Shown one piece after another: positions 21,045 through 45,128 of a stretch of DNA of 46,880 nt. A program made the position numbers and the translations under genes. Numbering within the stretch: position 1 is the first letter of the stretch; each line of letters starts with the position of its first letter. The DNA lies in the NCBI GenBank assembly GCA_947630835.1, contig CANRIZ010000020.1:1-46880 (forward strand). Reading direction: 5' to 3'. Under the pieces are notes generated by a model that had not been told where the DNA came from, did not search any database, and was given only the letters and a program-made list of their open reading frames with translations. The stretch is from an uncultured Clostridia bacterium. GTDB lineage: Bacteria; Bacillota; Clostridia; Oscillospirales; Acutalibacteraceae.

Positions 21045-23258
21045 TTATTTGCCGTACAAATCCGCAAGCGTTTTTTGAATATACGGATAAGATTTTTTCA
21101 ACCTCATATGATACGAGCTTTTGTCTTTTAATTTAAAGTTTATCGGGTTCAACTGAATTTCCGTATTGCCGTCGGACAATATCCCGCAGCCGACCTTAAT
21201 ACCCGTAAATTTAACCGTTGAAAGCGATTTTTCCTTATTAAAATCATTTACGGCAACACCTTCGTTGATATTGAGGACATTCAACAGGTACCAGGGAAGC
21301 CTTATTTCAACCGTATCACCCTTGGCGTAAAAATCGCTCAGGGAATTGTATTGCGGGCTTTCTGTATCGCTGATTCCGAACGTCAGCTTGCCGCAATCGT
21401 GTACTATCGGTTCTATGGTTTCGTTTGTGGCGGGTAATACCAACTCGCCTGTTACAAACTGTTTTACCGTTGAATAAGTGCCCGAATTGCTTACGCCGAA
21501 ATTCTTTGGCAAGGGGAAATATTTGGACTCTACGCCGTATCTGTAGTAAAAATAATCGTAATTTGCATCCGCCTTGACCTCGGAGCCGTTCTCGCCGTCA
21601 ATCAATACGATAAAATCGGCGTTTTCATTGAAGCGAAGATTATACTCGCTCGCAAAATTACTGCCTATGCCTATTGTGGAAACGGGAATAACAAGCTTGG
21701 AGCTGTCAAAGCTTTTACCGTTCTTGAGTTTTACAAGCAAATAAAGATATGCCTCGTCGTATTTTGCCGCAAGCCTGCAATCCTGCGACTCGAATACAAA
21801 ATCGGATTCGCTCCATTCGCTGTCGGAAGCGTCAATTTTGCAAATGTCCTTATCCCCCGCTTCTACCGCCAAAATCCCGTAATTCTGTTCGGGAGACATT
21901 TTGTTCGGCGTTCTCATGTCGGGGTTGTCGGGCGCATATCTAAAGGTATTCCAGGTCTGCTTAAACCACTCGTCCTGCCAGGAGAAAATCAAGCCGCCCG
22001 CACAGCCGGAGCTTGCAATATCAATTATCATATTGCTTACGTACTGCCCCTGCTGTTCTTCTGTAATACCGCCCTGATTATAACCAAGCACGCTTTCGGA
22101 GGCGCAGCCCCTGCTTGTGGGCAAACCGAATTCCGCAATAATCAGCGGAACGGAATACGCGCCGTTTAAATCCCTTATATAAGCCTTATAATTATTCTGC
22201 TTACCTGTAAGCTCGTCTTTATAATCTATATATTCCTGCTGATAGTTAATAAACTCGGGGTAATACGGGTAAGCGTCAACCGCGGCGAAAAGCCCCGCGT
22301 AATACTTGGCGGTCGGCTCTACGTTTTCCGTGTTTACCGTAACGCTGTCTTCCTCCTCATAAGGCTCGTTATCGTGCGTAAGCGGGTCGTTTGTGGACCA
22401 ATTTAGAAAAGCAACGGGAGTTTGATGATTGTAAAGCGTTGTTTCGTGCTCGATAAGCGTATTGCCCGCACGGCAAAGGAAGCTTTCAAAAGGCGAAGCG
22501 CCGTCTTTTGTTTTTAAATAATCGCCCGAATATTTGCTTTTATCGTTATGAGAATTACTGTTCATAACAAAAGTGTTATCCCATTCGAGGCCGAGAATAT
22601 AGCCCACTACATATTGTGAAATATCATATGTAAAGCTTATGTTTTCGCTGTTCGGATACTGTACTGCGGCGGCGTTGCCGTGTACAATATCGACAATTTC
22701 GTTAATTGCACGCTCAAACGAAGAAATAACAAGCTCTTCGGAATCCCAGCAATCCGCAGGGTCGTACATAAAATTCTCGTTAAACCAAATGCCGTGAATA
22801 AGGTAAAGCTTATTTTCCGCAGTACGGTTATAATCGTAAAACGCCTTGTAAAACTGCGGAGGCATTTCCGTAAATACTCTTACGGTGTTTGCGTGCATTT
22901 TTGAAATCTGCCCAAACCAATCCGTATAAGTTGCGCAGCTTACGTCGGGACTGTCCAAATTCGTGATTGCGGTAGAAAGGCCGACGTTTACGCCCGAAAC
23001 ATACACGCTTGACATTTTATCGTCAGAGAGACAGTAAATTTTTTTATCCGTATTGTCGGCAATAAAATTAACGCCCACGCCATTTGTGTCTACGGCGTCC
23101 TTAACGCTTGTTTCGATTTGAAATTTCGGCGTTGAGAGGTCAATTTCCTCGCCGTTGGGGTTTACTTTTTTATAAGATTTTTTTTCACATCCGCAAAGTT
23201 CAAATATCATAATTACAGAAAGAAGAAAGCATACGATACCGCTAAATTTTTTATTCAA
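21045..23258 (-). CDS. Secreted glycosidase-like lipoprotein (paralogue A)
   Basis: This 737-residue protein has a lipoprotein signal (lipobox LCGC, Cys24). Residues about 80-440 look like a clan GH-A type TIM barrel: NTVRVFTEMPPQFYKAFYDY, a candidate acid/base Glu225 in GYILGLEW, a candidate nucleophile Glu376 in IIAEFGLPTSRG, and the conserved FSWQDEWFKQTWN. The C-terminal about 270 residues form beta-rich modules with carbohydrate-binding (CBM9/DOMON-like) character, ending in a KKSYPYIQKTLADLYGK tail shared with its paralogues. I cannot place it in a numbered GH family. It is last in the riboswitch-led operon, two bases after paralogue B. The likely role is hydrolysis, transglycosylation or binding of the surface polysaccharide made by the linked GT2. 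Confidence 0.75.
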   Translation of the reverse strand: MNKKFSGIVCFLLSVIMIFELCGCEKKSYKKVNPNGEEIDLSTPKFQIETSVKDAVDTNGVGVNFIADNTDKKIYCLSDDKMSSVYVSGVNVGLSTAITNLDSPDVSCATYTDWFGQISKMHANTVRVFTEMPPQFYKAFYDYNRTAENKLYLIHGIWFNENFMYDPADCWDSEELVISSFERAINEIVDIVHGNAAAVQYPNSENISFTYDISQYVVGYILGLEWDNTFVMNSNSHNDKSKYSGDYLKTKDGASPFESFLCRAGNTLIEHETTLYNHQTPVAFLNWSTNDPLTHDNEPYEEEDSVTVNTENVEPTAKYYAGLFAAVDAYPYYPEFINYQQEYIDYKDELTGKQNNYKAYIRDLNGAYSVPLIIAEFGLPTSRGCASESVLGYNQGGITEEQQGQYVSNMIIDIASSGCAGGLIFSWQDEWFKQTWNTFRYAPDNPDMRTPNKMSPEQNYGILAVEAGDKDICKIDASDSEWSESDFVFESQDCRLAAKYDEAYLYLLVKLKNGKSFDSSKLVIPVSTIGIGSNFASEYNLRFNENADFIVLIDGENGSEVKADANYDYFYYRYGVESKYFPLPKNFGVSNSGTYSTVKQFVTGELVLPATNETIEPIVHDCGKLTFGISDTESPQYNSLSDFYAKGDTVEIRLPWYLLNVLNINEGVAVNDFNKEKSLSTVKFTGIKVGCGILSDGNTEIQLNPINFKLKDKSSYHMRLKKSYPYIQKTLADLYGK

Positions 23259-23260
23259 AA

Positions 23261-25468
23261 TTAACCTCCGAGTTCAGCAAGCGCTCCCTGCAAAATATAA
23301 TAAGATTTTTTAAGCCTTTCGTGATATGTGGGATTTGTTCCCCAAGGCGTATAATTGTAACTGCCCTCCATTTTAATGCTCTGCGGAGAATTTGACGTAT
23401 TTAAAACGGCGTAACCTATCTTAAAGCCGTTAAATACCGTACTTGTAATGCCCTGCTGACTGTAAAAATCGTCCATAATCTTTCCGTTCGAGGGATCGGT
23501 GAAATTGAACAGCTGCCATGGTATTCTTAACTCGATAACGCCGTCTTTTTCGCAAAAGTCCGCAAGAGAATTGTATTCCTTACTGTCCGGATTTGAAATG
23601 CCGTAAACCAGCTTGCCCGTTTCGTAAGATTCAAACGGAATTTTCTGCTTTGTTGACGGAATTTCCATTTCATAGCCCAGACACATATTCATCTTGTTGA
23701 ATATACCGGAATTTTTCTTTTCATATTCGCTGTTGAGCGGCGTCATTTTATACTGCGAGCCGTAAAGATAATAAAATACGTCGTAGTAAGCGTCGCACAG
23801 CATACGCGTATTATCCTTACCGTTTATTTGAAGCACAAAATCGGCATAATCGGAAAACGAAACGCTGCTCCCGTTCATTTTGTTGTTTCCCTGATTTGAA
23901 ATAGTATCTACCGGAATCAATATTGTATTTTTGGCAAAATCAAAGCCCTTGTTTGTCTTTATCATAAAATAAAGATATGCCTCGTCGCTTTTAATTGAAA
24001 GCGTACCGTACTCATTGTTAAGCACAACGTTTTCCTCTTTCCATTCGGAAGCGTCGCCGTCGATAAGGCAAACGGACTCCTTGCCCGGCTCAAACGAAAG
24101 TATGCCGAAAAACTGCTCGCAGGTCTGCTTATTCGCCCAATAAGGTCTGCGTTCGTCATCGTCGAAAAGCTCGTTGTTCCAAGTACGTTTAAACCACTCG
24201 TCCTGCCAGGAGAAAATCAGACCGCCGGCATACTTTTGCTCGTATATGGAATTAAACATATCGGCAACCGCCTCGCCCGCTTTTGTTTCCTCCATATTGC
24301 CCTGATTGTAATCCATTATGCCCCTGTGCGCCATTCCGCGAGAGGTTGAAACTCCGAATTCCGCAACCAAAATGGGCATGGTATGCGCCATTTTAAGGTC
24401 TTTAAGATACGCTTCATACGGATTTATCTTGCCGCTTGAATCCTTATAGCTTATATAATCCTTCTGATAATTCATAGTGTCGGGATAATAAGGATAAATA
24501 TGATAAGAAGCAAACATATTTGCGTTAAAGTTTGTTCTTGACTTTATGCTTTCGGTATTGAGCGTAACGGAATCCTCGTCTATAAGAGGTTCTTCGGGGT
24601 GAGTGAGCGGGTCGGTGGTAATCCAGTTACAAAAAGCCACGGGAACCTGCCATTTGTATTTTTCGGACTCCGCTTCAATTACCGCGTCGCCTATCTGTGC
24701 AAGGAACGCCTCAAACGGCGAAGCGCCCTGCGCATAAAGATATTTGCCGTCGTAGGTGTTTTTGTCGGGGTTGACGGTGTTTACGTTTTTGATAAAAGAG
24801 GGGTCGAACTCCATACCTAAAATCCAGCCGGCAAGCCATGGAGAAACGTCGCAGGTATAAGTACCAACAGCGTATCCCGTTCTTTTCGGAAGAACCGCCG
24901 AGCCGTGAATTATATCGACCATATCCAAAGCATCGCTTTTAAACGAGTTCAAAAGCTTTGAATTTTCCGCATAAACGTCGTTTAAATTCTGTATATCGTT
25001 TTCGTCAAGACAAACGCCCTGAAAAAGATAAAGCGGCTTTTCCGCTTTCTTGTTAAAGTCATACAACGCCTTATAAAAATCGGGCATAAGTGCTGTATAT
25101 ACACGAATACAGTTTGCGTTCATCTCGCTAATCTGCGTAAACCATTTATAATATTCATCATACGAAACGCCGAGCTCGCCGGGAAAAAGTCCGGGCTTTC
25201 CGGCGCCTATATTAACGCCTTTCCAGAAAACCTGATTCCAAGAATCGTTACCGTAAATGTAAAAATAATCGCCCTCGGCTTTAATTTTGTATCTTACGCT
25301 GCCGTCGGATTCGCTTTCGATTTCCGCGGTTTCGCTCTTAGAGTCGCCCGATTCCTTTGACTTTCCTATGGACGCCTTATTGATTCCGAACCTCTGCAAA
25401 GCGCCTACCTGCGCCAAAACCAAAAGCAATACCAGGGTTACGGCAACAGGGATTAAAACTTTTTTCAT
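23261..25468 (-). CDS. Secreted or anchored glycosidase-like protein (paralogue B)
   Basis: This 735-residue paralogue of the next gene has an N-terminal hydrophobic signal or anchor (about 4-24) and a Ser/Glu-rich linker. The barrel carries ANCIRVYTALMPDFYKALYD, a candidate acid/base Glu220 in GWILGMEFDPSF, a candidate nucleophile Glu370 in ILVAEFGVSTSRG, and FSWQDEWFKRTWN near residue 425. The beta-rich C-terminal modules include VIELRIPWQLFNFTDPS and end with RLKKSYYILQGALAELGG. The start ATG at 25468 is 13 bases after the GT2 stop. Tandem duplication with paralogue A is evident from colinear motifs. It presumably acts outside the membrane on the polysaccharide. The exact reaction is unknown. 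Confidence 0.75.
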   Translation of the reverse strand: MKKVLIPVAVTLVLLLVLAQVGALQRFGINKASIGKSKESGDSKSETAEIESESDGSVRYKIKAEGDYFYIYGNDSWNQVFWKGVNIGAGKPGLFPGELGVSYDEYYKWFTQISEMNANCIRVYTALMPDFYKALYDFNKKAEKPLYLFQGVCLDENDIQNLNDVYAENSKLLNSFKSDALDMVDIIHGSAVLPKRTGYAVGTYTCDVSPWLAGWILGMEFDPSFIKNVNTVNPDKNTYDGKYLYAQGASPFEAFLAQIGDAVIEAESEKYKWQVPVAFCNWITTDPLTHPEEPLIDEDSVTLNTESIKSRTNFNANMFASYHIYPYYPDTMNYQKDYISYKDSSGKINPYEAYLKDLKMAHTMPILVAEFGVSTSRGMAHRGIMDYNQGNMEETKAGEAVADMFNSIYEQKYAGGLIFSWQDEWFKRTWNNELFDDDERRPYWANKQTCEQFFGILSFEPGKESVCLIDGDASEWKEENVVLNNEYGTLSIKSDEAYLYFMIKTNKGFDFAKNTILIPVDTISNQGNNKMNGSSVSFSDYADFVLQINGKDNTRMLCDAYYDVFYYLYGSQYKMTPLNSEYEKKNSGIFNKMNMCLGYEMEIPSTKQKIPFESYETGKLVYGISNPDSKEYNSLADFCEKDGVIELRIPWQLFNFTDPSNGKIMDDFYSQQGITSTVFNGFKIGYAVLNTSNSPQSIKMEGSYNYTPWGTNPTYHERLKKSYYILQGALAELGG

Positions 25469-25481
25469 ATGTAATTACCTC

Positions 25482-26921
25482 TTATTCGTTAAAGGTTTTA
25501 CGTTGAATACTACCCCATTGGTTTTTAAGCTTTCTGAATCTTAAAATACCCTGAACACGGCTGAAAACAACGATTTGCCTGTATCCGAAATTTTCAATCA
25601 ACGCATAGCAGGCAAGCTCCATAGCCTGCTTTGGAGACATACAGCCTTTACGGGTATATTGCTCAAGAATAACGCCGCCTATAGAAAACAGGCTGCCTAT
25701 TGAAACGGTCAACAAAAGATAAATAATAAAGAAAAATGCGTTAAGCTCGCCCATCAGCAAAGAGAAAGGAATAATAAAGTATCCCAAAAATTCTATCATA
25801 GCGCCGAACAGCTCGTAAATCCAGTTATAAGGTATGGAAACCAAGCCCACAATTCCGTAAATCGGGTTAAAGGTCATCGAAAAATGGCTCAAAAGGGTAT
25901 CAAAAAGCCCGACCTGCCAACGACGTCTTTGATTCATAAGGTCCTTTAACGACATAGGACCCTGAGTCCAACAAACAGCCTCGTGGCAGAAAGCAATTTT
26001 GTATTTCATACTCTTTCTGCGCTTTCTGTTTCTTTCCTTAGCCCTCTGCTTTCTGAGATAGTGGTGGATTTTAACTATAATCTCCATATCCTCGCCTATG
26101 GTATTAAGCTTATATCCGCCGACCTTAATAACTATATCCTTCCTGAAAAGTCCGAATGCCCCCGATACTATCAACAAAGAGTTTCCCCAGGAAACACGGC
26201 CGTACAGGAACGAACGGAAATATTCAACAATCTGGAATTTTTCAACCATCTTTTTGGGAAGGCTGAATTCCCGCCACTCGCCGTCCTCTATAACAGAGCC
26301 GTTAGCTATGCGGACAAAGCCGCCCGCGACAACCGTTGAGCTGTCCTTCATAAACACCTGACCGAGCTTGAGCAGAGCGTCTCTTTCAATTCTCGAATCA
26401 GCGTCAAGGCAAGCAAACAGCGGGTAAGAGGAAGCGTTTATGCCTGCGTTAAGCGCGTCGCTCTTGCCGCCGTTTAATTTATCGATATACAACAAATTGG
26501 GATATTTACTGCTGTAATAAATCCCCTGTATTTCCTGCGTTTGAATTTCAACCTTTATAGATGATTTTATTTTTTTAAGGTTAAACGAATCAACCATTTC
26601 CTTGTGCGTGTTATCGGTTGAACCGTCGTTTACGACAATGATTTCAAATACGGGATAATTCATTTTCATAAGCGATTTAACGTTATGCACTATGTTCTCC
26701 TGCTCGTTGTAAGCAGGGATAATCAAAGAAATAGGAAGCAAGTTGTCCGAATCCTCATATCTTAAATAATCGTCGGAAATTTCAACTTTTTTGTCCTTTT
26801 TTATCCTGAATACGGATATTAAAAACTGAACCAAATAGATAAAAGAAAGCGAAAGCGTATACGCCATACAAAAGTAGTTGAAAAACGATATAAACTTTCT
26901 GATAATTTCAATAAAAGACAT
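25482..26921 (-). CDS. Processive-type GT2 glycosyltransferase (copy A)
   Basis: This 479-residue membrane glycosyltransferase has one N-terminal hydrophobic segment (about 16-38) and at least three C-terminal helices. The GT-A domain has LIIPAYNEQENI, VVNDGSTDNT, NGGKSDALNAG, CLDADSRIERD (DxD, about 173-175), GEDMEI and QRRRWQVGLFD, the Q-x-x-R-W type motif of polymerising synthases (cellulose, hyaluronan, PNAG class). An unusual basic insertion (KQRAKERNRKRRKS) sits after the GEDME motif. It should polymerise a sugar from a nucleotide donor and pass the chain through the membrane. It lies directly downstream of the HEAT protein gene, an order repeated in the right arm (copy B at 41597). Donor sugar cannot be predicted from sequence. 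Confidence 0.88.
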   Translation of the reverse strand: MSFIEIIRKFISFFNYFCMAYTLSLSFIYLVQFLISVFRIKKDKKVEISDDYLRYEDSDNLLPISLIIPAYNEQENIVHNVKSLMKMNYPVFEIIVVNDGSTDNTHKEMVDSFNLKKIKSSIKVEIQTQEIQGIYYSSKYPNLLYIDKLNGGKSDALNAGINASSYPLFACLDADSRIERDALLKLGQVFMKDSSTVVAGGFVRIANGSVIEDGEWREFSLPKKMVEKFQIVEYFRSFLYGRVSWGNSLLIVSGAFGLFRKDIVIKVGGYKLNTIGEDMEIIVKIHHYLRKQRAKERNRKRRKSMKYKIAFCHEAVCWTQGPMSLKDLMNQRRRWQVGLFDTLLSHFSMTFNPIYGIVGLVSIPYNWIYELFGAMIEFLGYFIIPFSLLMGELNAFFFIIYLLLTVSIGSLFSIGGVILEQYTRKGCMSPKQAMELACYALIENFGYRQIVVFSRVQGILRFRKLKNQWGSIQRKTFNE

Positions 26922-26967: not shown

Positions 26968-28044
26968 TTACATAACCTTGTACAGACATTCCTTAACCGC
27001 GTCGGCGGCATATCTGTCGTAGCCTTTTATAACTTCCTCAACATATTTCATACTTGCGTCCATTTCAACAAGGCATTGCGCGGCGCGTTTCCTTACCCAC
27101 CATTGCTCGTCGGCGGTAATCTGCTTTACAGCCAAAATACATTCTCTTGAGCATATCTTTTTAAGGCCGGGCAGTGAAGAAAGCCTTATAACCCAGTCGC
27201 TGTCCTTAGACGCCATAATCAGATACTGCTCCAAATCGGGCGAACCGAGGCTGGACATAGCCTTTACGCTTGCAATCCTTACCTGATTGCTGCCGCTTGT
27301 AAAGCCCTCGATATAAAGGCTTTTCAGGGAGTCAAGCTTGTCGTCCTTAACCGCCTTAAAAATTGTTGCTTTCATATAATCGCTTATATTGCCCTTTGTG
27401 GCAAAATATTTTCTTATAAGCAAGGACTTATCGCCGGTATAGTTGTTGAGCAGTTCGATAATTATCCTGTGGCTGAATTTTGTGTTATCCTCGCATTTTT
27501 CGAGAAAATCAATTACCGAAGCCTCTTCCCCGAGTATTGAAAGCGCCATACCGGCGTTATATTGCAAGGTGGTTTCTTTTGAATTAAGATACTCCTTTAT
27601 ATCCTGCGTAGCTTCGGTGGCGTTAAGGTCGGCAAGCAGTCTTAAAACGTATGATTTTTCGTACTTGTCGCACTTTTTAAGCAAATCGCGAAGCTCGGGA
27701 ATGAGGTTAAGATTTTCGTATATCTCGTCAAGTATTTTTATATTTGATTCCGACAAATTATCCTTATTTTTTATAAAATTCAGATAAACCGCGGAAGCGC
27801 AAAGCAAATAGGTGTTGCTCTTTTTGCAGAGCCTGCCCAATTCTTCTATTTCGGCTTTCCTTGAAGCCTTTGTGGGAGAGCCGAAAATTGCCGAAAAATG
27901 ATTTTTGGCGTTTGAAAGATTGTATTTTCTCTTCTTAAGGAAGTCCTCCTGCTGCTCGGCAACAACATATAACCATATAAAACCAAAAAGAATGAAAAAT
28001 ATTGAAATTATAAACATTATAACCGCCAAAGCTTCATAGCTCAT
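26968..28044 (-). CDS. Membrane-anchored HEAT-repeat protein (copy A)
   Basis: This 358-residue protein has one N-terminal transmembrane helix (about 8-30, IMFIISIFFILFGFIWLYVV) and then an all-helical cytoplasmic body. HEAT-like repeats are visible in phrases such as VRIASVKAMSSLGSPDLEQY, DWVIRLSSLPGLKKI and WWVRKRAAQCLVEMDASMKY. Such repeats form protein-binding solenoids with no catalysis of their own. The gene sits 46 bases upstream of the GT2 gene. A second anchored HEAT protein precedes the second GT2, overlapping it by four bases. The repeated pairing suggests that the HEAT protein is a scaffold or regulatory subunit of the synthase complex. Confidence 0.85.
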   Translation of the reverse strand: MSYEALAVIMFIISIFFILFGFIWLYVVAEQQEDFLKKRKYNLSNAKNHFSAIFGSPTKASRKAEIEELGRLCKKSNTYLLCASAVYLNFIKNKDNLSESNIKILDEIYENLNLIPELRDLLKKCDKYEKSYVLRLLADLNATEATQDIKEYLNSKETTLQYNAGMALSILGEEASVIDFLEKCEDNTKFSHRIIIELLNNYTGDKSLLIRKYFATKGNISDYMKATIFKAVKDDKLDSLKSLYIEGFTSGSNQVRIASVKAMSSLGSPDLEQYLIMASKDSDWVIRLSSLPGLKKICSRECILAVKQITADEQWWVRKRAAQCLVEMDASMKYVEEVIKGYDRYAADAVKECLYKVM

Positions 28045-28072: not shown

Positions 28073-31000
28073 TTAATAGGAAGAAAAATACTTTTTCAAC
28101 GTGTCAAACGCCGATTTTTGAGAAATTGTATATTCGATATTCGCTTTTTCCCACGCCGTCCATTTAAACGCCTTATATCCTGCGGACTGCTTGCTTACAG
28201 GGAAGACGTACATGGTATCCTTAGACTTTTTATCGCCTATAAATACGGAGCATATAATGCCGTCGGTCATGGTTGTTCTGTATTGATTGTTCGCTCCGCT
28301 CGGAGCGCTTGCCGTATCGTTTATAACTATGCTTCTGGCGGGGTCCGTAAAGTTAAGCATAGCCCAGGGCAAGCGTACCCTTATAGAGTTGCCCGCGGTA
28401 AAGAACTGCGTGTTCTGCGATGAAAAGCTGCCGTAAACAAGCGGAGAAACAATGTCATACGAGGCGTTGTAGCTTTCCTTTGAGGATGTGGCGCCCTTAT
28501 TTCTGTTGTATGAAGAAGCGCAATAAACGGTGGCGGAATTTTTGCTTTCAAATTTGATGATAAACTCCATACCGGAAAGCGCGTTTCCGAAGAAGTTTTT
28601 ATCGTAATAGTATTCGCCGTCGTTCCTCTGATAAGTGTCAAAGCCCAGGTAAAGCTCTTCCGTCTCAAAGTTGACTTCCGTATCAAGGCTTATATTCAAG
28701 TACAGATAAGTTTCGTTGCAGCTTATCTGCATTTGATTCATCCTCTGCTTATTTTCCTCCAAAAGCAGTCCCGTTTCCTCGGGCTGAACAGAGTCAACGG
28801 AAAGCACGCCCGTGGTTTGACCCAAATCGGTAATATCGTGCCAAAGACCCGAAGATGAGAACGGAACGTTGTACTTTCTGTCGGCGTCGCTTACAGCCGC
28901 CCAGTTATCGTTGAGGTCGGCAATAAATCCGCCCGCAAAGCCGCCGCTGTTTATCGACTTATACATATCAAGCAAATACTGCGCCTGCTTTTCCTCGCTG
29001 AGTCCGTAAACGTCGGTTTCCGTTTCAAAAACATTAACACAGGTCGAAGCGCCGAAGCTTTCTATAAACACAGGTAATTTGCTGTTGTTTTTAATTTCCT
29101 TTAAATACAGCTTGTAGGAGTCGCTTGCGTTCTTGCCGCCTAACTTAACCTTACTGCTTTGATAAACGGCGTCGCTGTATTTTGCGCTGTAGGCAACGCC
29201 GAAATATGGCTTTGCCTCGTCGCTTACGCTTATATTGGAGGCGTTAAAGGTAACGGAGTTATTCTCCTGCCAAGCAGTACCCGAAAGCAAAGCCGTGCTT
29301 CCCTTTGCCGCCGTGACAACCAAATTGTTGTATTTTTCCTTATTGTATTGAAGCAAACAGTCGCAAAGGTCGGCAAGCAGAGCCTCCGCCGAATTGCCCG
29401 AAGCGCTTAAATATTTACCGTTATAGCTGTATTTTAAATTGGAAACGGTATTTCTCAACTGAGCGTCGGTCATATTCAAGTCTACAAAATACGCCGCAAG
29501 GTAATTTGAAACGTTATGCCTGTAGTTTTCCGCCGAGTTTGCGTCGTTAGCCGTCGCCTCGCTGTTTCCGTGAACGGAATCGACGGTAAATTCAATATGA
29601 TTGTGTAATTGCTCTATAACCGACGGGTCGGTAATTTTACTTTTGTCAACCGTATCCGGCGTAATAATACCCTGATAAAGATAGATTAGCTTATCTTTAT
29701 TCTCCTTGTTATGCTCGTACAATGCCCTGTAAAATTCGGGAGGATACAAGTCATACGCTCTTACGGCGTTTGCTCCGATTTCATCAAGCTGTGAAAACAG
29801 TTGCTCGTAATATGAAAAATCGTTTGAATATTCGTACCTGTTGCTGCCGGGAGCTTCGGCGTTTAAATTAAAGCCCTTTATCGAAAGCTTTTTCCACTCC
29901 CCGTCGACCTGAACCTCAAGGTTGTCGTTATTAAGACGGGTAAGGTTAATATCGGCGCGGGTTTCTGAATCGGAAACACGCTCTACGACTTTGTTTTTAT
30001 TGGTGTTTTTAATTATCCTTTTCATCATCGGCTCAAAGAACTGCCAATAAAAATGGGTAACGTCGCCGCCGTTATCAAATGAAATGGAACGATAAAACGT
30101 ATCGGCACCCAGGAAGCAGGACAGCTTCATATCGTCAACATAGTCGTTGAAATCGCCCGCAAAATAATAAGTAGGCGCAGTTTCATAGGGGTTTCTGACA
30201 ACTGCGGCAAATACGGGTTTATCGGATACCGGCGCAAATTCCTCCATACCCGTGGAATTTAAATTAAACTCGTACTCGGCAAGAGTTTCGGTGCCGCTGT
30301 TTGCCTCAACCAGCTCGAACCAGGCGTAATAATTTAACGACCTTTTGCCGAATTCCGATTTGAAATCCTTGGTTGTTCTGATTTTCAGCAGATTTTCATC
30401 TTCAAAATCGGTTTTGCCCTCGAGAACGATAATGTCGCCCTCGGTTGAAACAAGTAGTATGCCCGAACCCGAGCAGCGCCATTCAACGCCGTACTTCTGC
30501 TTATACATAGGAGGCGCCCAATATGGAACGTCGTCCAAATCCGCAAGGTCGTATATGTATCTTCCGGACCATCCGGTTTCGGTAATTCCGAACATCTTTT
30601 GAAGCTGCAGGGATATGGATTTTTCCGTGTTGTCAACGCCCAGAATATCCTGCTCGCCGATAACGACGCTTCCGAGCGAATGGCACAAGGCAACGGTATT
30701 CATATCCTCGCCCGTTATTCCCTTGTCCTCGGTTATCTCGGTTCCGTATGCGTCCGCCAAATATAAAATATCCGGTATTTCTTTAATGTCGTCAAGCACT
30801 CTTTCCTCGTCAAGGAGTTCAAAGTTTTCGTCGAGCATATAGCCGTAATAATCTTTTGTATAATCATACTTCTTTTTGGTTTCGGGGTTTTTAACCTTCA
30901 TATAGTTTAAAAGCCAGTTAAGACCTATATGCTTACGGTACACATTATCGACGTCGTCAAGGTAGCTGTGACTGTCGGCGGCGGTAGCGGGAACGGTTTT

Positions 31001-34718: not shown

Positions 34719-34761
34719 TATAAAAAAGCCGCAAATAATGTTTACAACATCATTCGCAGCC
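34719..34761 (-). terminator. Riboswitch expression platform: intrinsic terminator
   Basis: On the minus strand a long stem (GGCTGCGAATGATGTT pairing with AACATTATTTGCGGC, 34761-34728) is followed by TTTTTTATA. Its 5' arm overlaps the 3' end of the c-di-GMP aptamer (GACTGGCTGC), so aptamer folding and terminator folding should compete. That layout predicts that ligand binding prevents termination (an ON switch), an inference to be tested. Confidence 0.85.
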
Positions 34762-35103: not shown

Positions 35104-35133
35104 TTGACAATATACGCTTAAAAAAAGTATACT
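35104..35133 (+). promoter_or_regulatory. Promoter of the right polysaccharide arm
   Basis: A perfect -35 TTGACA (35104-35109), an 18-base spacer and a -10 TATACT (35128-35133) give transcription from about 35140. This places the start of the mRNA at or after the ATG at 35138, so translation of the first gene must begin further downstream (see 35219). Confidence 0.85.
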
Positions 35134-35149
35134 GTGAATGAAAATCGGG

Positions 35150-35197
35150 AAGTTACAGGTTGCAAATAAAGGCGAAAGCCGAGTTTGTAACTTTTTT
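35150..35197 (+). terminator. Leader terminator/attenuator before the VTC gene
   Basis: Right after the transcription start, TTTGTAAC (35184-35191) can pair with GTTGCAAA (35159-35166), or its last bases with the upstream AAGTTACA (35150-35157), around a small GGC-GAAA-GCC hairpin. The stem is followed by TTTTTTCTTTT. The two alternative 5' arms competing for one 3' arm suggest an attenuator. I do not recognise a known aptamer in it. It may be a short riboswitch, protein-binding leader or sRNA-like terminator. Confidence 0.65.
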
Positions 35198-35218
35198 CTT
35201 TTAAGGGACGGTGAGAGC

Positions 35219-35908: not shown

Positions 35909-35933
35909 ACAAAATCAAAAAGGAACATATGTT

Positions 35934-38139: not shown

Positions 38140-38163
38140 CCGAATTTAAAAGGAGCGACTTCA

Positions 38164-40443
38164 TTGAAAAAATATCTCGCCACGGTATGTATTTTACTTG
38201 TATTGGCTTTTTTGTGGAATATTTTATATTTTCAATTAGGCGTTTTCGTCGATTTAAGACCGAATGCGCCTGTCTCTGCATTTATGAAAACAAAGGATAA
38301 GAAAATATATATCGAAAAAGACGGCAATTACGAACCCTTTGAGCTGAGAGGCGTCGATATGGGCGTAGGCGTCCCGGGAAAATGGGCGACGGAATTTTCG
38401 GTTGACGAGGAAACATATTTGCGCTGGTTTAAGCAAATTCAGGAGCTCGGCGCAAACAGCATCAGGGTTTACACTATATTAAACGATACCTTTTACAACA
38501 GTTTTTATGAATATAATTCTCAAAGGGTTAAAGACAACCTAGAGCCATTGTATCTTTTGCAGGGCGTATGGGTAAGCGACTACGCCCTTTTTTCGCATAT
38601 GGACGCATTTGACAGCGACTTTTTAAAGCCGTTTATTACAGACTGCCATACTATGGTAGACGTAATCCACGGCAAGCGCAGTTTGACCTTAAGCACGGGC
38701 AACAAGGGAAGCGGCAACTACCGCAAAAACGTTTCTCCTTGGGTTATCGGATATATATTGGGAGTCGAATGGGAGGATTATACCGTAACCTACACGAACG
38801 AAACGGATACGGAAAAAAGCAGCTATAAGGGAAAATATATGTACACAACGGACGAGGCTACGCCCTTTGAAGCGTTCCTTGCCGAGGTCGGCGACGATAT
38901 AATCAGGTACGAGAGCACCCGATACAAGCAGCAAAGGCTGGTTGCTTTTGCAAACTGGCCTACGACCGACCCGTTTGTATATCCCGAAAGCGTTGTTATA
39001 GAAAGAAACAAGCTTACCTGTTTGGATATGGAGCATATAAAGACTACGCAAGATTTTATTTCCGGTATGTTTGTTTCGTATCATGTTTATCCGTATTATC
39101 CGGATTACCTTGAAATTATGCGTTCAAGCAAAAAGTACAGCGAGGAGGAAATGAAGGAGCTTATAAGCGACGTCCGTTGGGAAACTATAAAATACCGTAT
39201 TTCAAAATTAAAAGGACCGAAAATCGAAGATTATATTGACGAAAAGGCCCTTATTGATTCCGACGGAAAATATAACACCTACCTCGCCTATTTAAAAGCG
39301 CTGACATCGTATCATACCATGCCGGTTGTTATTTCCGAATACGGAGTAACAACGGGACGGGGAATTGCTCAAATAGATAAAAACACAAACAGAAATCAGG
39401 GCAATATGTCCGAAACGCAGCAAGGCCGGGCGATTATCGACTGCTACAAGGATATAGTAAACGCCGGCTGCGCGGGCAGCTATATTTTCACTTGGCAGGA
39501 CGAATGGTTTAAGCGCACCTGGAACACCATGCATGCGGTTGACCTTAATAAAACGCCTTACTGGAGCGATTATCAAACCAACGAGCAGTATTTCGGGCTG
39601 TTATCCTTTGACCCAGGCGAAAACGAGAGCATATGCTATGTTGACGGCAAAACGGACGAATGGAGCGAGGAAGATATTGTCGCTTCAAACGGCGACGCTT
39701 CGCTGTCAATGAAATACGATGAAAAGTTCGTCTATTTTCTTGCAAAAAAGAAGGACTTTAACCCCGATAAGGATACGCTTTATATTCCTCTTGACATAAA
39801 CCCGAAAATAGGAAGCACCTACGCGAAAAATTATAATATCAGCTTCGACAGGGAAGCGGATTTTTTGCTTTTTATTCACGGAAAAAGCGACAGTCGACTG
39901 CTTGTTCAGGAACGCTATGAATGTCTTAACGCAATATACGGCGAATTTTATTACGGCAGTCTTCCGTATATCTCGCCGCCCGACGCAAACAGCCCTAATT
40001 TTGTTAAAATATATCTGCCTTTGAATTTAAATGAGAATTTACTTGATTTAACGAATGAAAATGCAATTAACATACCGAGCGAAAAATTTGAAACGGGTCT
40101 GCTCACCTACGGCAACGCAAACCCGAACGCTCCCGATTTTAACTCTTTGGCGGATTTTATTTTTTCGGACGACTGCGTCGAGATAAAAATACCCTGGCAG
40201 CTTTTGAATTTCAGCAATCCATCGGAAATGACAATTCACGACGATTACTACGAATGTTACGGTATTGAAAATCTCAAAACAGACAAACTGTACGCCGGCA
40301 TTGCTTCAAGCGGCGACGCCGATTTCAGAATACCCACCTATCCCCTGAATCTTAAAGGTTGGGGGCAAAAGGTCAGCTATCACGAAAGGCTTAAAAAATC
40401 CTATTATATGGTCAAGGATTATTGGGCTTCTGCAGATAAATAA
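38164..40443 (+). CDS. Secreted or anchored glycosidase-like protein (paralogue C)
   Basis: This 759-residue paralogue of the two left-arm proteins starts at TTG 38164 with the site AAAAGGAG. An N-terminal hydrophobic segment (about 5-28) directs it outside the membrane. The barrel carries ANSIRVYTILNDTFYNSFYE, candidate acid/base Glu202 in GYILGVEWED, candidate nucleophile Glu392 in VVISEYGVTTGRG, and FTWQDEWFKRTWNTM. The C-terminal beta modules include EIKIPWQLLNFSNPS and end RLKKSYYMVKDYWASADK, matching the tail of paralogue B. It has a charged insertion around residues 318-365 that the others lack. It sits between CotH and the second HEAT gene. The probable role is trimming, transfer or binding of the exported polysaccharide. 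Confidence 0.75.
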   Translation: MKKYLATVCILLVLAFLWNILYFQLGVFVDLRPNAPVSAFMKTKDKKIYIEKDGNYEPFELRGVDMGVGVPGKWATEFSVDEETYLRWFKQIQELGANSIRVYTILNDTFYNSFYEYNSQRVKDNLEPLYLLQGVWVSDYALFSHMDAFDSDFLKPFITDCHTMVDVIHGKRSLTLSTGNKGSGNYRKNVSPWVIGYILGVEWEDYTVTYTNETDTEKSSYKGKYMYTTDEATPFEAFLAEVGDDIIRYESTRYKQQRLVAFANWPTTDPFVYPESVVIERNKLTCLDMEHIKTTQDFISGMFVSYHVYPYYPDYLEIMRSSKKYSEEEMKELISDVRWETIKYRISKLKGPKIEDYIDEKALIDSDGKYNTYLAYLKALTSYHTMPVVISEYGVTTGRGIAQIDKNTNRNQGNMSETQQGRAIIDCYKDIVNAGCAGSYIFTWQDEWFKRTWNTMHAVDLNKTPYWSDYQTNEQYFGLLSFDPGENESICYVDGKTDEWSEEDIVASNGDASLSMKYDEKFVYFLAKKKDFNPDKDTLYIPLDINPKIGSTYAKNYNISFDREADFLLFIHGKSDSRLLVQERYECLNAIYGEFYYGSLPYISPPDANSPNFVKIYLPLNLNENLLDLTNENAINIPSEKFETGLLTYGNANPNAPDFNSLADFIFSDDCVEIKIPWQLLNFSNPSEMTIHDDYYECYGIENLKTDKLYAGIASSGDADFRIPTYPLNLKGWGQKVSYHERLKKSYYMVKDYWASADK

Positions 40444-40481
40444 AGGCTTACACACATTAACTCGGAAAGGCGGTGAAAAAG

Positions 40482-41600
40482 ATGGAGTTAAGTCAGGTTT
40501 TGCTTTACGGCTACGCAATAATATGCCTCAGTATGATATTGTTTAACATAGTCTATGTTACGCTTTTAAACCATAACGACGTTCGCCTTGAAAGAAAAAT
40601 CAAAAAGTTTGAAAAGGAAGCTCAAATTCAAATCGAGCGTATAAGAAACGGCGAAGAAATTAATCAAAAGCATTTTACATACTTAGAGCGTAAGCTTGTA
40701 CATGTATACAATCTTATAGCCTTTGACAAGGTGATTAGAAAGCAATATGAGAACGGAGTAAGTCCGGAGCTTGACGAGTACATACACGCCGTAAGGCCGG
40801 TAATGCTTCATCTTGCCGTCGATTACCGAAAGAGAGACAGTCTTGAAGCCGCATATTTTCTTTACTTTATCGGCAGATACGCAAAGCAAAACCGTATGCC
40901 CATGGACAGCCTTCAGGACATAATCGTAGATTATATGAACAGGCACAATCTGTATTGCAGAATAAACGCTTTGCAGGCGTTATACAGCTTCGGCAGCGTT
41001 GAGAATATTATAAAAGCAATTTATTTGCAGGACAAAAACGGTTATTTTTTGCACGAAAAGATATTGCAGGACGGGCTTTTGTCCTTTGGCGGAAACCACG
41101 ACGAGCTTATAGAAAGACTTTGGGCGCGGTTTGATGAATTTTCCGTAAAAACGCAAATTTCCATACTCAATTACATACGCTATAAAAGCGGAAATTATCT
41201 AAAAGAAATGTACGAAATAATGATGGATGAAAGCAAGGACAGGGAACTGCGGCTATCGGCTATACGCTATTTCGGGAAATACACATACGAGCCGGCAAAG
41301 CGGGAGCTTTTAAATTTTGCTCTTGACGAGGATTTAAGCCGCTGGGAATACACGGCGGTAAGCGTAAGCTCGCTTGGCGTTTATGAGGGCGAAGATATTG
41401 AAGACGCCTTGATTAAAGCGGTACACAGCTCCAACTGGCATGTAAGGTACAATGCCGCGGTAAGTTTGGAGTCTCACAATATAAGCTATGAGAATATACT
41501 GGAAATAGTCGAAGGGAAAGACAGGTACGCTCGGGAAATGCTGCTTTACCGTCTTAACTCGCAACGGCTCGAACAGCAGGAAAAGGCGGCGGACGTATGA
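40482..41600 (+). CDS. Membrane-anchored HEAT-repeat protein (copy B)
   Basis: This protein of about 372 residues has one N-terminal transmembrane helix (about 6-28, LLYGYAIICLSMILFNIVYV) and then a helical solenoid. HEAT-like units are seen in LRLSAIRYFGKYTYEPAKRE, EYTAVSVSSLGVYEGEDIED and NWHVRYNAAVSLESHNISYE. Either GTG 40473 or ATG 40482 could be the start; I prefer the ATG because GGCGGTGA precedes it at good spacing. Its last codons overlap the GT2 start by four bases (ATGA), giving tight translational coupling. It is the counterpart of the left-arm HEAT protein and is probably a dedicated partner of the adjacent synthase. Confidence 0.85.
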   Translation: MELSQVLLYGYAIICLSMILFNIVYVTLLNHNDVRLERKIKKFEKEAQIQIERIRNGEEINQKHFTYLERKLVHVYNLIAFDKVIRKQYENGVSPELDEYIHAVRPVMLHLAVDYRKRDSLEAAYFLYFIGRYAKQNRMPMDSLQDIIVDYMNRHNLYCRINALQALYSFGSVENIIKAIYLQDKNGYFLHEKILQDGLLSFGGNHDELIERLWARFDEFSVKTQISILNYIRYKSGNYLKEMYEIMMDESKDRELRLSAIRYFGKYTYEPAKRELLNFALDEDLSRWEYTAVSVSSLGVYEGEDIEDALIKAVHSSNWHVRYNAAVSLESHNISYENILEIVEGKDRYAREMLLYRLNSQRLEQQEKAADV

Positions 41601-43003
41601 CAAACAATATTATTCAATCCGTTTTTGACGCTGTAGGCACATTCTTTGTAATATATATGATAGGTTATGCAAGCTTTTTGTTTGCCGCCGTTGTCGTAGG
41701 TTCATCGTCGCTCTACAGCGCAAAAAGGAGAAACGTACTAAAAAACGAGCTTCAGGCGGGTTATTACGTACCCGTTTCTATACTTGTACCCGCATATAAC
41801 GAGGAGACAACAATAGTCAGTACGGTTAACTCCCTGCTCGCTCAGGACTATAAACTGTACGAAATTATAGTTGTCGACGACGGCTCAAAAGACAACACCT
41901 CGCAGGAGCTTATCGACTCTTTTAATATGCGGCGCATTAACCATCCCCTGCAAAGCAAAATTCCCTGTCAGCCCGTGGAAGCGGTATATGAAACCAACGC
42001 TTACAAAGTTCCGATTATTCTTATCAGAAAGAAAAACGGAGGCAAGGCGGACGCGCTTAATATGGGCATTAACGCCAGCAGATACCCGTATTTTTTATGC
42101 ATGGACGCGGACTCGATTTTACAGTACGACTCCTTGGAAAAGGTTGTACGTCCCGTTTTGGAAGATGACAATGTTGTTGCGGTCGGCGGAGCGGTTCGAC
42201 CCTGCAACGGAGCGATAATAAAGGACGGTCACGTAATAAGCTATCATTTACCCAACAGAATTTTACCGTGTATGCAGGTTTTGGAGTACGACCGCTCGTT
42301 TTTGGCTTCCCGCATTTTATTTGATAAATTTAACGGCAGTATTATTATTTCCGGCGCTTTCGGGCTGTTTAAAAAGAGTACGGTCGTTTCCGTAGGCGGC
42401 TATGAAACCACCACCATGGGCGAGGATATGGAGCTTGTAATAAAGCTGCACGCCTTCTGCCGTGAAAACAATATCCCATACCGCATACGCTATGCGACGG
42501 ACGCAATTTGCTGGACGCAGGTCCCCGAACGCTTAAAGGATTTGCGAGGTCAAAGAAGGCGTTGGCATATCGGGCTTTTTCAAAGTATGAAGGCTCACAG
42601 CAAAATACTGTTAAACCCGAAATACGGTCTTGTAAGCTTTATTTCTTACCTCTATTTTTTGTTTTACGAGCTTCTCTCGCCGTATATTGAGGTATTCGGC
42701 ATATTTACCATGGCTTTTGCCGCCGTGTTCGGTTTTCTTAACTTTAAATTTATGCTTATGTATCTGCTTATATATATGGCGTTTTCGTCAATTTTATCGC
42801 TGACGGCGTTTTTTGCGCGGATACATACCATTGATTTGCGTATAACCTTTACCGATATATTAAAAGCCATAGGCTTATGCTTTGTTGAGATTTCCTGCCT
42901 GCGTTTTGTTCTTGCATGGGTCAGAATAACGGCGTTAATAGGCTACCGTAAGAAAAAATCAAAATGGGGCAAAATTCAGCGCCAGAAAATTAATTTTAAC
43001 TAA
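41597..43003 (+). CDS. Processive-type GT2 glycosyltransferase (copy B)
   Basis: This 468-residue membrane glycosyltransferase has one N-terminal helix (about 15-38) and a C-terminal membrane region of about three to four helices. Motifs are ILVPAYNEETTI, VVDDGSKDNT, NGGKADALNMG, CMDADSILQYD (about 169-178), GEDMELVIKLH and QRRRWHIGLFQ. It is clearly paralogous to copy A, including the LRFVLAWVRITALIGYRKKK tail, but lacks the basic insertion found there. It should use a UDP- or GDP-sugar to extend a chain and export it. Coupling to the HEAT gene by a four-base overlap, and a coiled-coil gene directly after, point to a dedicated multi-protein synthase complex. Confidence 0.88.
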   Translation: MTNNIIQSVFDAVGTFFVIYMIGYASFLFAAVVVGSSSLYSAKRRNVLKNELQAGYYVPVSILVPAYNEETTIVSTVNSLLAQDYKLYEIIVVDDGSKDNTSQELIDSFNMRRINHPLQSKIPCQPVEAVYETNAYKVPIILIRKKNGGKADALNMGINASRYPYFLCMDADSILQYDSLEKVVRPVLEDDNVVAVGGAVRPCNGAIIKDGHVISYHLPNRILPCMQVLEYDRSFLASRILFDKFNGSIIISGAFGLFKKSTVVSVGGYETTTMGEDMELVIKLHAFCRENNIPYRIRYATDAICWTQVPERLKDLRGQRRRWHIGLFQSMKAHSKILLNPKYGLVSFISYLYFLFYELLSPYIEVFGIFTMAFAAVFGFLNFKFMLMYLLIYMAFSSILSLTAFFARIHTIDLRITFTDILKAIGLCFVEISCLRFVLAWVRITALIGYRKKKSKWGKIQRQKINFN

Positions 43004-43015
43004 CGGAGAAAGCAT

Positions 43016-43261
43016 ATGAGAGTTGAAGATTTAAAAAAGGGATTCGGCTATAAAAAGGACAGCGTCTATCGGCTAATAACTTTTATGGACGAAGAATTTT
43101 CAAAAAGGCTTATGCAAATTGAAAAAGACAATAAAAAGCACATTTCAGAGCTTGAAGAAGAAATTAAAAGTCTGCGGGAAAAAAATTCCGCTTTAAACAA
43201 CGATTTGCGCTTGCTTGCAAGCACCATAAACAATATTGAAAGCAATCCCGCGGAAGAATAA
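43016..43261 (+). CDS. Small coiled-coil protein with a DivIVA-like N-terminal motif
   Basis: This 81-residue cytoplasmic protein is translated from ATG 43016 with the site ACGGAGAAAG, 12 bases after the GT2 stop. The N-terminus has a GFGYKKDSVYRLITFMDEEF motif that resembles the start of DivIVA/GpsB-like coiled-coil proteins of Clostridia. The rest is a Glu/Lys-rich heptad coiled coil (KHISELEEEIKSLREKNSAL). Such proteins often organise membrane complexes at poles or septa. A localisation or scaffolding role for the synthase is a reasonable guess; no firm family assignment. Confidence 0.7.
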   Translation: MRVEDLKKGFGYKKDSVYRLITFMDEEFSKRLMQIEKDNKKHISELEEEIKSLREKNSALNNDLRLLASTINNIESNPAEE

Positions 43262-43321
43262 AAATCCGTTTGCAAATGCAATTACGATAACAAATACTAA
43301 GGAAGCAAAGGTAAATCAGAT

Positions 43322-45128
43322 ATGGCAGAGCATATAATATACGTTGCGGGTAACCCGAATTTATACCCGATTGAATATTACGATAAAAGCAGCGACAGCT
43401 TCCGCGGCGTTATTCCCGAGCTGTTGGAGGAATTTTCTCTTAAAAGCGGCTATGATATTAAATATTACAAGGCAAGCTCTGCCGACAGGCGTAAAAGTCT
43501 TTCCGAAAACCAACAAACCGATTTAATTTCCGGCTGTACGGCAGACGAAAAATTTGCGAACGTAAAGGAAAAGGCCATAACCGTTTTGCAAACGGAAAAG
43601 GACGGCAAAAAAACCGCATATAATATTTTATTGGCTAAATCCGCGCCCGCCGCTTTTGAGCAAGATTTAAGGAAATTCTTTGAGGGGGTTTCCGCCGACG
43701 CAAAAACAGAATTGCTTATAAGAAGCCAATCAGCGCCCGCAGGCTATTCCTCCAAGGGCTTGCAGGCGGGCATAGCCGCGTTGGCGGTTGCGGTATTTTT
43801 GCTTATAGTATTGGTAACGACCGTAATTATAAAATACAGAAAAAAACTTAAAAAATACAGCGCCGAAAGCTCCTCGGACAGCGTAAAGGGCATAGGCAGT
43901 AAGGAAAGCCTTGCTTCGGCCTATCGTCACGCATTGAACGATAAAAACAAAAACGTTTTTAATCTTATTTATTTCTATATTGAATTTTATAAAAAAGAAG
44001 AGCTTGAATTTAACGAAATTTGCGATTTTTCAAAAAAAGCGGCGGAGGTTTTGCAAAACTACATCGAAAGCGACGACGTTTTGGTTAAGATTTCCGATAC
44101 CGAATTTGCATATTTAAACTTGACGAGGAACAAGCTTGAATACAATTTGCTTATCGGCACAACCAACAGACTGCGTTCGCTTCCCGAAAGAAACGATAAA
44201 TCGTATTATTGCAATGCCGGAGCGGGAGTTTATATGATAAACGACGACGGCGGCGCCGACATTGAAAAAATACTTTTTGAAGCCCGAAAAGCGGCGGTTA
44301 CCGCTTGCGGCGACGGCGTAAATTATATTATTTGCGAAAACTCCGATTCCGAAGAAGAGCCGGAAAACGAATACGATATAGAAAAAGGCATTGAAAACAA
44401 GGAATTTGTCCTTTATATTCAATACTACATAAACACAAACACATTCAGAAATTCCGGCGGCGAAGCAATGCTTATTTGGAAGCACCCGAAAAAAGGTCAA
44501 TTATCCGCAGAGCGCTTCTACCCTGTCGCAAAAGAAAAAAATATGACAAATAGGATAAACTGCTTATTGCTTGAAAGCATTTGCGCTTTTTTGGAGGAAT
44601 TGGATAAAGGCGGCGTTCACAGCTTTTTTATCTCCTGTAATTTTTCCGACGACGCCTTTGAGAACGAGAATTTTGCCGCCGAATGTATAAAAATCATCAG
44701 CAATCATCGTTTTGACAAAAGACTGCTCATTTTCGGATTTTCCCCCCGTTAATTCGTCAAATAATTCAGAGTTTATAAAGAAAAATATTCAAATTCTAAA
44801 GGATTTCGGCGTTCAAATAATGCTTGAGGATTTTGACGACGGCGTATCTAACGTTTACTCCCTGCAAAAATACGAGGTAAACGCAATTAAGCTCAGTAAA
44901 ACGCTTGTTGAGCAGGCCGATACCGAAAAGGGACGAAATTGCTTGAATACCGTTTTTAAAATATCGCATGAGCTTGATATTCCCCTTTTCGCTGGCGGTA
45001 TAAAAAGCGACTCGCAGCGTTACGAATTGCAAAAAATGCAATGCAATATGGTGCAGGATATCCGAGTAAACTATCCCATAACGGCATACGAGGCAAAAAA
45101 GCGGTTAATCAATAAGCAAAAGAAATAG
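43322..45128 (+). pseudogene. Degenerate GGDEF-EAL protein, interrupted by a frameshift in a C6 run
   Basis: The first frame (43322-44752) encodes a periplasmic-binding-like domain (about 4-145), one transmembrane helix (about 148-168) and a degenerate GGDEF domain (VKISDTEFAYLNL where RxGGDEF is expected). The first half of an EAL-like domain follows and stops just after a run of six C (44742-44747). The rest of the EAL domain continues in another frame to 45128 (IMLEDFDDGVSNVYSLQKYE, in which the usual DDFG is EDFD). Removing one C joins both parts into one protein of about 600 residues. Neither domain keeps full catalytic motifs, so an intact form would more likely bind than make or break c-di-GMP. 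Oddly, the sensor domain has no signal peptide; an in-frame TAA lies at 43298. It closes the right arm. Confidence 0.75.

Follow-up and report, generated by a model that had tools for sequence, protein, structure and literature searches.

Two divergent modules with a predicted HEAT-partnered glycan synthase, one behind a c-di-GMP-I riboswitch, in an uncultured Clostridia bacterium

Gene content of the locus

We examined a 46,880-base stretch of DNA, here called the window, which constitutes the entire contig C20 (CANRIZ010000020.1) of the 2.1-Mb genome of an uncultured Clostridia bacterium (GCA_947630835.1). Open reading frame (ORF) and Pfam searches of positions 21045-45128 identified two divergent operons, each of which contains a processive-type family 2 glycosyltransferase (GT2), a membrane-anchored HEAT-repeat protein and one or more secreted TIM-barrel glycosidases. 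An original prediction, made from the letters of the sequence, had described the locus as an undescribed Gram-positive exopolysaccharide system of two mirrored modules governed by cyclic di-GMP (c-di-GMP), and the core genes that it named were all found in place. The resemblance of the two modules is real at the sequence level, with identities of 39% between the two GT2s, 22% between the two HEAT proteins and 31-40% among the three glycosidases.

The left operon, on the minus strand, begins with a 272-residue protein (33856-34674) that falls in no family, looks disordered when read from the sequence and has a homologue of 267 residues in the sister genome, G001. It is followed by an HD-GYP protein (31258-33816; PF13487, HD_5, 102 bits), a predicted c-di-GMP phosphodiesterase, and by a 1037-residue membrane-anchored protein (28073-31186) in which a GATase1/ThuA-like domain (about residues 50-400) is joined to a pseudo-glycosidase. 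HEAT1 (26968-28044; PF13646, HEAT_2, 75 bits), which by eye has a single N-terminal hydrophobic stretch, and its partner GT1 (25482-26921; PF00535, 88.2 bits) come next, and two glycosidases without Pfam match complete the operon. These are B735 (23261-25468), a secreted or anchored member of clan GH-A with a GH157-like fold, and its paralogue A737 (21045-23258), the N-terminus of which reads as lipobox-like (LCGC). The inventory predicted for this side was correct in its genes and short in its glycosidases, there being two intact enzymes besides the pseudo-glycosidase.

On the plus strand, the right operon follows a promoter-like site (35104-35133) that retains 11 of 12 consensus bases, a sequence match that is no proof of function. 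It encodes the sole VTC match of the genome (polyphosphate polymerase-like; 35138-35908; PF09359, 140.7 bits), a DUF4956 protein (35880-36614; PF16316, 43.4 bits), the only CotH kinase-family match of the genome (36637-38139; PF08757, 198.8 bits), the secreted TIM-barrel glycosidase E759 (38164-40443; no Pfam match), HEAT2 (40473-41600; PF13646, 32.1 bits) and its partner GT2b (41597-43003; PF00535, 103.9 bits). The true start of VTC is probably a TTG codon near 35219, because the interval 35104-35200 contains a promoter-like -10 element and a hairpin followed by a T run. The hairpin (35150-35200, plus strand) encloses an inner GGCGAAAGCC ahead of the T run, is repeated in the sister genome and is possibly an attenuator.

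Downstream of GT2b are an 81-residue coiled coil that is DivIVA-like (43016-43261; PF05103, 20.6 bits, under the cut-off of 28) and the GGDEF-EAL relative of the original prediction. The latter is indeed present, but as a gene split into two overlapping ORFs in different frames: the first (43322-44752) has a weak SBP-like N-terminus, a degenerate GGDEF domain and the first half of an EAL domain, with the frame broken at its 3' end, and the second (44712-45128) carries the other half of the EAL domain (PF00563, 67.5 bits). Coiled-coil proteins adjoin both module types, at 43016-43261 in the window and at L050:13732-14760 (cluster 11) elsewhere, and are a possible positioning factor.

HEAT proteins accompany the glycosyltransferases

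Both GT2s have several hydrophobic segments, as read from their sequences, and the GED and QRRRW motifs of processive enzymes, with the Q..RW signature, which form invariant columns of our alignment A5. Of 299 phylum genomes sampled, at least 25, that of the window among them, encode a glycosyltransferase of this type at E 1e-60 or better; with the top five candidates per genome scored, this is a lower bound. A HEAT-profile match was present in a neighbouring gene or in the same ORF at 26 of 26 phylum loci. Three biases affect this count: HEAT-linked GT2s served to build the query, the window itself supplies two of the loci, and the HEAT profile includes rows from some of the same genomes. The E-values ranged from 6e-111 to 2e-7, apart from one of 3e-118 that belongs to HEAT1 itself, and HEAT proteins were found beside none of three other synthases (PgaC twice and an XrtG-associated enzyme).

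Fusions occur among the four core parts. HEAT, GT2 and GATase1-like domains are joined in a single 1378-residue Heliophilum protein (L074/L195; HEAT E 2e-12), HEAT and GT2 in L196, glycosidase and HEAT in L025/L179 (HEAT E 5e-61), and GATase1-like domain and glycosidase in six Bacillus-type loci; therefore every core part is fused to another somewhere. Such fusions lend independent support to a predicted HEAT-GT2 unit. The synthases of L119 and L080 have long N-termini in which we had read HEAT repeats by eye; the profile found none there, and this reading was dismissed. The ORF at L025:358-3600 (G079) holds the glycosidase at 36-703 and the HEAT repeats at 739-1079.

We also examined 10 of the 384 plasmid records with a glycosyltransferase match. 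In 8 of these a HEAT protein adjoins the GT2 (Planococcus, Deinococcus, Mesorhizobium, Erythrobacter, Bacteroides, Haloarcula, Halosolutus and Emticicia), the Emticicia protein being recognised by profile rather than annotation and the Halosolutus protein by annotation and missed by the profile; the records with XrtG-associated or PgaC enzymes had none. With the pair annotated in Bacteroidota, Alphaproteobacteria, Deinococcus and haloarchaea, the description of the pathway as Gram-positive proved too narrow. In Halosolutus gelatinilyticus (plasmid L140), genes for a sugar-phosphate nucleotidyltransferase and GlmS come after the HEAT-GT2 pair and point to an amino-sugar polymer in archaea. On the plasmid of Mesorhizobium ciceri (L141) the pair lies among response regulators, a YaiO-type outer-membrane barrel and an Hpt protein, and this is likely a Gram-negative version of the module.

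Glycosidases of the modules

The three glycosidases are 39.6% (A737-B735), 37.5% (E759-B735) and 31.1% (E759-A737) identical. A737 and E759 both have the catalytic Glu pair, which is present in all 117 rows of the family alignment, two rows being copies of one genome (L016 and L058, both of which were also counted in alignments of 41 and 33 rows). The alignment of catalytic residues also bears out the call of a pseudo-glycosidase in the 1037-residue protein. GH157 was the top fold match, and a strong one; the comparison is by fold, and B735 has no sequence match in the PDB. Relative to the LaGH157 structures (9g4n, 9fz9, 9g5g), the window enzymes show 15% identity and an extra C-terminal beta-rich part. 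A CBM9-like domain suspected at the C-terminus found no support in Pfam, and GH113 gave weak matches to 8 of 30 members, the best at E 9e-4. LaGH157 and BcellWH2_01931 are endo-beta-1,3-glucanases of family GH157, for which activity on linear beta-1,3-glucan is reported (PMC10229575).

Within the genus the family occurs in 2 of 36 genomes, and in the phylum sample in at least 26 of 398, where at most 2 candidates per genome were scored. In the sister genome, E759 has a copy of 80% identity and B735 one of 88%.

The left operon lies behind a c-di-GMP-I riboswitch

A full-length c-di-GMP-I aptamer (34752-34836, minus strand; Rfam RF01051, model positions 1-87, 65.4 bits, gathering threshold 35), overlooked in the original prediction, heads the left operon. 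An intrinsic terminator (34727-34761, minus strand), with a 16-pair stem followed by a T run, uses the last 10 aptamer nucleotides at the start of its 5' arm. The ligand-stabilised aptamer and the full terminator should be mutually exclusive, and c-di-GMP is therefore predicted to switch the left operon on. The base preceding GCAAA is G, which we take to be the c-di-GMP-type base. Compared with other GEMM-I riboswitches of RF01051 the aptamer is typical, being full-length, well over the cut-off and followed by a terminator platform, with nothing unusual about it.

To search for related aptamers we used a family covariance model built from eight seeds with only 8 pairs, the seeds being drawn from Rfam searches and independent of the model. 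The search set comprised 88 sources, from which L058 (a copy of G001) was excluded and to which L016 and L017 were the only contributors from L001-L047. This yielded 30 matches at E < 1e-6 in 24 of the 88 sources; an R1 match in L117 at E 0.28 was left out. Of the 30, seventeen precede a module operon in the same orientation, those of the window and of L131 included; in three cases (L116, L049, L090) this is less clear, since an opposite-strand ORF or a gap came first when the ORF was picked. For 12 of these 17 aptamers the terminator begins within the aptamer itself: they comprise all 11 with left-type operons, among them that of the window and that of the sister genome, which has a weak T run, as well as the aptamer of the right-type module in G448, where the aptamer (L131:7920-8008) precedes VTC at 8042.

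The c-di-GMP link of the original prediction was thus borne out at several points. Besides the aptamer, the HD and HHE..D.. metal-ligand positions of the window's HD-GYP protein are invariant in 33 of 33 rows, although its GYP motif reads GYL and deviates in most of these rows, and a REC-GGDEF protein adjoins the module in Priestia. A single GGDEF match of the genome exceeds the cut-off; it lies in a contig C1 protein whose architecture is REC-HD-GYP-GGDEF (the REC part as read from the sequence) and whose GGDEF motif is intact. There are also two HD_5 matches, including that of the window, and no PilZ match. Scoring of 150 of 361 candidates gave at least three GEMM-I aptamers, and the search for c-di-GMP-II aptamers covered the window. 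The two EAL matches of the genome are the halves of the broken gene at the locus, in which the GGDEF motif reads SDTEF and the EAL region EDFDD. The frame break may reflect decay or an assembly error; the sister's gene is one ORF of 599 residues, and the relative in G448 retains canonical EAL motifs (DDFG and EGVET).

Several observations weigh against a general role for this control. Among the 17 aptamers, four of Paenibacillus type have their hairpins further downstream and that of L095 (Clostridiaceae) has none. In 28 of the 31 left-order loci the DNA that precedes the HD-GYP gene is visible for 1.3 kb or more, and among these the family model found a heading aptamer in 9 and none in 19, where control might run through the HD-GYP protein or other parts. 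Rfam searches of L056 and L059, both among the 19, and of L091 gave no aptamer, and no c-di-GMP aptamer was found in six further loci (Clostridium, Thermobrachium, Acetobacterium, Tepidanaerobacteraceae and Treponema). Finally, the window's own right operon has no riboswitch, and its leader has no Rfam match in the window. Our confidence in the overall interpretation was slightly lowered by the limited terminator overlap (12 of 17) and the 19 loci without aptamer, and RNA-level control by c-di-GMP appears from these counts to be frequent, not general.

The base before GCAAA varies among relatives. In Paenibacillus modules of the same type it is A in L077:8630-8715 and L086:8782-8867 and G in L078 and L084, so that the ligand preference of module-heading aptamers may differ. 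Both members of a tandem pair of c-di-GMP-I aptamers at G000 contig C4:80907-81227 (L128, L129) also have A in this position, presumably a cGAMP-type change.

Two cassettes of probably separate history

In the glycosyltransferase tree, GT1 groups with the enzymes of Ruminococcus-type left operons (support 100/100) and GT2b with the CotH/VTC-linked GT2s of G448, G205 and Planococcus (100/100). All these enzymes part from PgaC, BcsA and the XrtG-associated glycosyltransferase at a fork with support 85/94 and long outgroup branches, and the GT2s did not group with any of the characterised synthases included.

Both gene orders recur beyond this genome. The left order was found in 31 of 79 related loci, a set that favours close relatives of the window since it derives from the best 80 of 570 confirmed relatives, with L058 excluded. 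None of the 79 had VTC or DUF4956 within the fetched flanks, and a single weak CotH match (52 bits) was seen, in L063. The right order, VTC-DUF4956-CotH-glycosidase-HEAT-GT2, is shared by the window, the sister genome, G448, G205 and a Planococcus plasmid, and in the last three no left module lies close to it. Within the set of loci examined, adjacency of the two modules is confined to the window and its sister. In an empty-site comparison with G024, the genes that flank the locus lay on different contigs. These patterns suggest that two old cassettes, found apart elsewhere, have been brought together, rather than that the locus is one mirrored system as originally proposed; local duplication as the origin of the two modules was rejected on the basis of the tree. 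On the Planococcus maritimus plasmid (L137), a Qat-type anti-phage locus and a recombinase gene lie downstream of the right-hand module.

Comparison with known polysaccharide loci

PgaC/IcaA, the synthase of poly-N-acetylglucosamine (PNAG), was the best NCBIfam match for all nine glycosyltransferases scanned, at 110-161 bits against a cut-off of 422, while the CelA model of cellulose synthesis reached at most 45 bits against 699. For the window, GT1 and GT2b scored 119.6 and 145.8 bits with TIGR03937 (PgaC/IcaA; cut-off 422.3), whereas with TIGR03030 (cut-off 699.1) GT1 scored 31.6 bits and GT2b had no match at 1e-10. Membership in either family was rejected on these scores. Compared with the PNAG synthases of pga and ica loci, the best match at about one third of the cut-off, the window GT2s have a HEAT partner instead of the usual ones: deacetylase, PgaD/IcaD, BcsB and PilZ gave no Pfam match at E 0.01 in the 16 ORFs of the locus, to which the deacetylase and PgaD/IcaD search was confined. 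The absence of the usual synthase partners noted in the original prediction therefore agrees with the profile scores and with the lack of PilZ genome-wide. The CcsA/CcsZ system of C. difficile and that of Romboutsia are reportedly Gram-positive GT2 polymer synthases, CcsZ being the cognate glycosidase. The window resembles such clostridial cellulose or mixed-linkage glucan synthases in its Gram-positive GT2s and differs in having no CelA-level score and no PilZ, a comparison of features rather than of sequences.

The closest printed counterpart is NELoc-2 of C. perfringens, for which a 2010 table gives VTC, 'tubulin/FtsZ' (226 and 222 residues), CotH (497), a hypothetical protein (685), HEAT (377) and a family 2 glycosyltransferase (466; PMC2879425). 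Set against this printed table, the right module has the same order and similar lengths, with DUF4956 in the position of 'tubulin/FtsZ'; in NELoc-2 the VTC-'tubulin' pair is present twice, with a resolvase between the two, and a sigma factor lies upstream. The glycosyltransferase is annotated there as 'chitin synthase', with no function stated (Lepp et al. 2010, PMC2879425), and later genome papers carry the same annotation (PMC5964661, PMC11677781). One of these lists a polysaccharide deacetylase gene in NELoc-2 (PMC11677781), for which no counterpart was seen in the window. The right-hand gene order was thus already in print and in that sense not undescribed, although it appeared there without a function.

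The accessory set of the right module is shared with Gram-positive Pel clusters, which are reported to include CotH, a polyphosphate polymerase and DUF4956, and in bifidobacteria a diguanylate cyclase/phosphodiesterase gene (PMC7112168). The core of these clusters is pelDEADAFG (PMC7112168), whereas no Pel core family was found among the 16 ORFs at 21045-45128, which the search covered. A search of open-licence papers found none that describes a HEAT-GT2 synthase, and none that describes this operon type behind a c-di-GMP-I aptamer.

Proposed mechanism and alternative explanations

Taken together, we consider it fairly probable that the locus comprises two independent synthase-dependent exopolysaccharide modules of one type, in which a processive GT2 glycan synthase has a constant HEAT-repeat partner, and we judge them to be a HEAT-partnered variant of synthase-dependent polysaccharide systems. 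The analysis supports and strengthens the core idea of the original prediction, that of a separate kind of glycan synthase machinery linked to c-di-GMP. As to activity, we infer that in the left module c-di-GMP from the REC-HD-GYP-GGDEF protein of contig C1 would bind the riboswitch and prevent the end of the aptamer from pairing into the terminator stem, allowing transcription of the operon. HEAT1 would bind GT1 from the cytosolic side and hold or gate it, while GT1 would polymerise a nucleotide sugar and thread the chain through the membrane. The emerging chain would be received by the anchored GATase1-like/pseudo-glycosidase protein and trimmed or released by the two GH157-like enzymes, B735 and A737, just as the hydrolases BcsZ, PgaB and PelA trim or release the polymer in known systems. 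The HD-GYP protein of the operon would degrade c-di-GMP and provide feedback. The right module would work likewise, with CotH, VTC and DUF4956 forming a cassette for modification or control. As to the nature of the glycan, the glycosidase fold points to a beta-glucan and the glycosyltransferase profile to an N-acetylhexosamine polymer.

We consider it unlikely that the GT2s are variants of a known synthase, of PNAG (PgaC/IcaA) or cellulose type, with unusual accessories. PgaC/IcaA is their best profile match, cellulose synthase structures align over 49-408 with E-values of 6e-7 to 8e-7, and a deacetylase gene is listed at NELoc-2 in PMC11677781; yet the scores fall far below both cut-offs, the expected partners are missing from the locus and PilZ from the genome, and the two PgaCs branch apart in the tree, with weak support at the fork. 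It is quite improbable that the locus is one integrated system, arisen by local inverted duplication, whose modules make a single polymer. Their adjacency and divergent orientation, the shared GT2, HEAT and glycosidase paralogues and the identical layout in the sister genome would fit such an origin, but GT1 and GT2b belong to separate clades of full support with partners of their own in other genomes, the 79 related loci have no VTC or DUF4956 in the flanks fetched and a weak CotH match in L063 alone, and the right module occurs by itself in G448, G205, the Planococcus plasmid and, as printed, C. perfringens.

The GT2s might instead glycosylate lipids or proteins without making a secreted polymer, the glycosidases being catabolic, as TIM-barrel glycosidases often are; PGM, melibiase-like and GH38 genes near the left operon would suit this. 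Such a role is equally improbable, given the processive-type Q..RW signature and hydrophobic segments of the GT2s, the fusion of a pseudo-glycosidase to an anchored domain and the riboswitch and GGDEF links. Least plausible is that the locus is a decaying island that no longer functions: the GGDEF-EAL frame is broken and the glycosidases are confined to 2 of 36 genus genomes, but the remaining ORFs are open, E759 and B735 remain close to their sister copies, catalytic residues and riboswitch are kept, and the break may be an assembly error. We thus regard this explanation as very unlikely and favour two HEAT-partnered synthase modules.

A wider proposal, to which we give an even chance, is that HEAT-GT2 pairs form a major unrecognised class of processive polysaccharide synthases in bacteria and archaea, wired to lineage-specific signalling and export parts. 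A cytosolic HEAT solenoid would then replace PilZ, PgaD or PelD as the regulatory subunit. Signalling would run through c-di-GMP riboswitches and GGDEF proteins in Bacillota and through response regulators in haloarchaea, Alphaproteobacteria and Emticicia. For export, Mesorhizobium would rely on a YaiO-type barrel and Gram-positives on a GATase1-like/pseudo-glycosidase receiver. Much of the small c-di-GMP circuit of the window organism would converge on this polymer, because GEMM-I aptamers are, of the two receptor classes sought, the one that was found, PilZ being absent, besides the degenerate GGDEF-EAL protein of the locus.

If the proposed modules are real, they would represent a widespread synthase type with GT2 and HEAT as the minimal unit, present in at least 25 of 299 sampled phylum genomes. 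They would suggest a function for NELoc-2, a poultry-disease-linked locus with an annotated chitin synthase, and for the trio of CotH, VTC and DUF4956, found beside Pel genes as well. They would likewise provide a polysaccharide target for the c-di-GMP riboswitches of Clostridia and Paenibacillus, and an example of transcription-level control of a matrix polymer by a Gram-positive bacterium without PilZ.

Neighbouring genes

Two groups of proteins recur near the modules in other genomes. Cluster 5 consists of secreted-looking proteins of about 350 residues (L050:14936-15856; L051, L067, L073 and L116), several of which directly follow a c-di-GMP-I aptamer of their own and which may share the regulon of the module. 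Cluster 7 is a secreted-looking protein of about 299 residues (L077:8862-9755 and 10 other loci) that stands behind c-di-GMP-I aptamers beside the module in several loci. An assignment of the latter as GalU was rejected, the protein being secreted, TIM-barrel-like as read from the sequence and without Pfam match, and its hint of UDP-glucose therefore fell away. Within the window, dockerin-bearing proteins are encoded at 3374-6892 and 45843-46880, one of them purple-acid-phosphatase-like and one a repeat protein, and the organism may have cohesin-dockerin surface assemblies.

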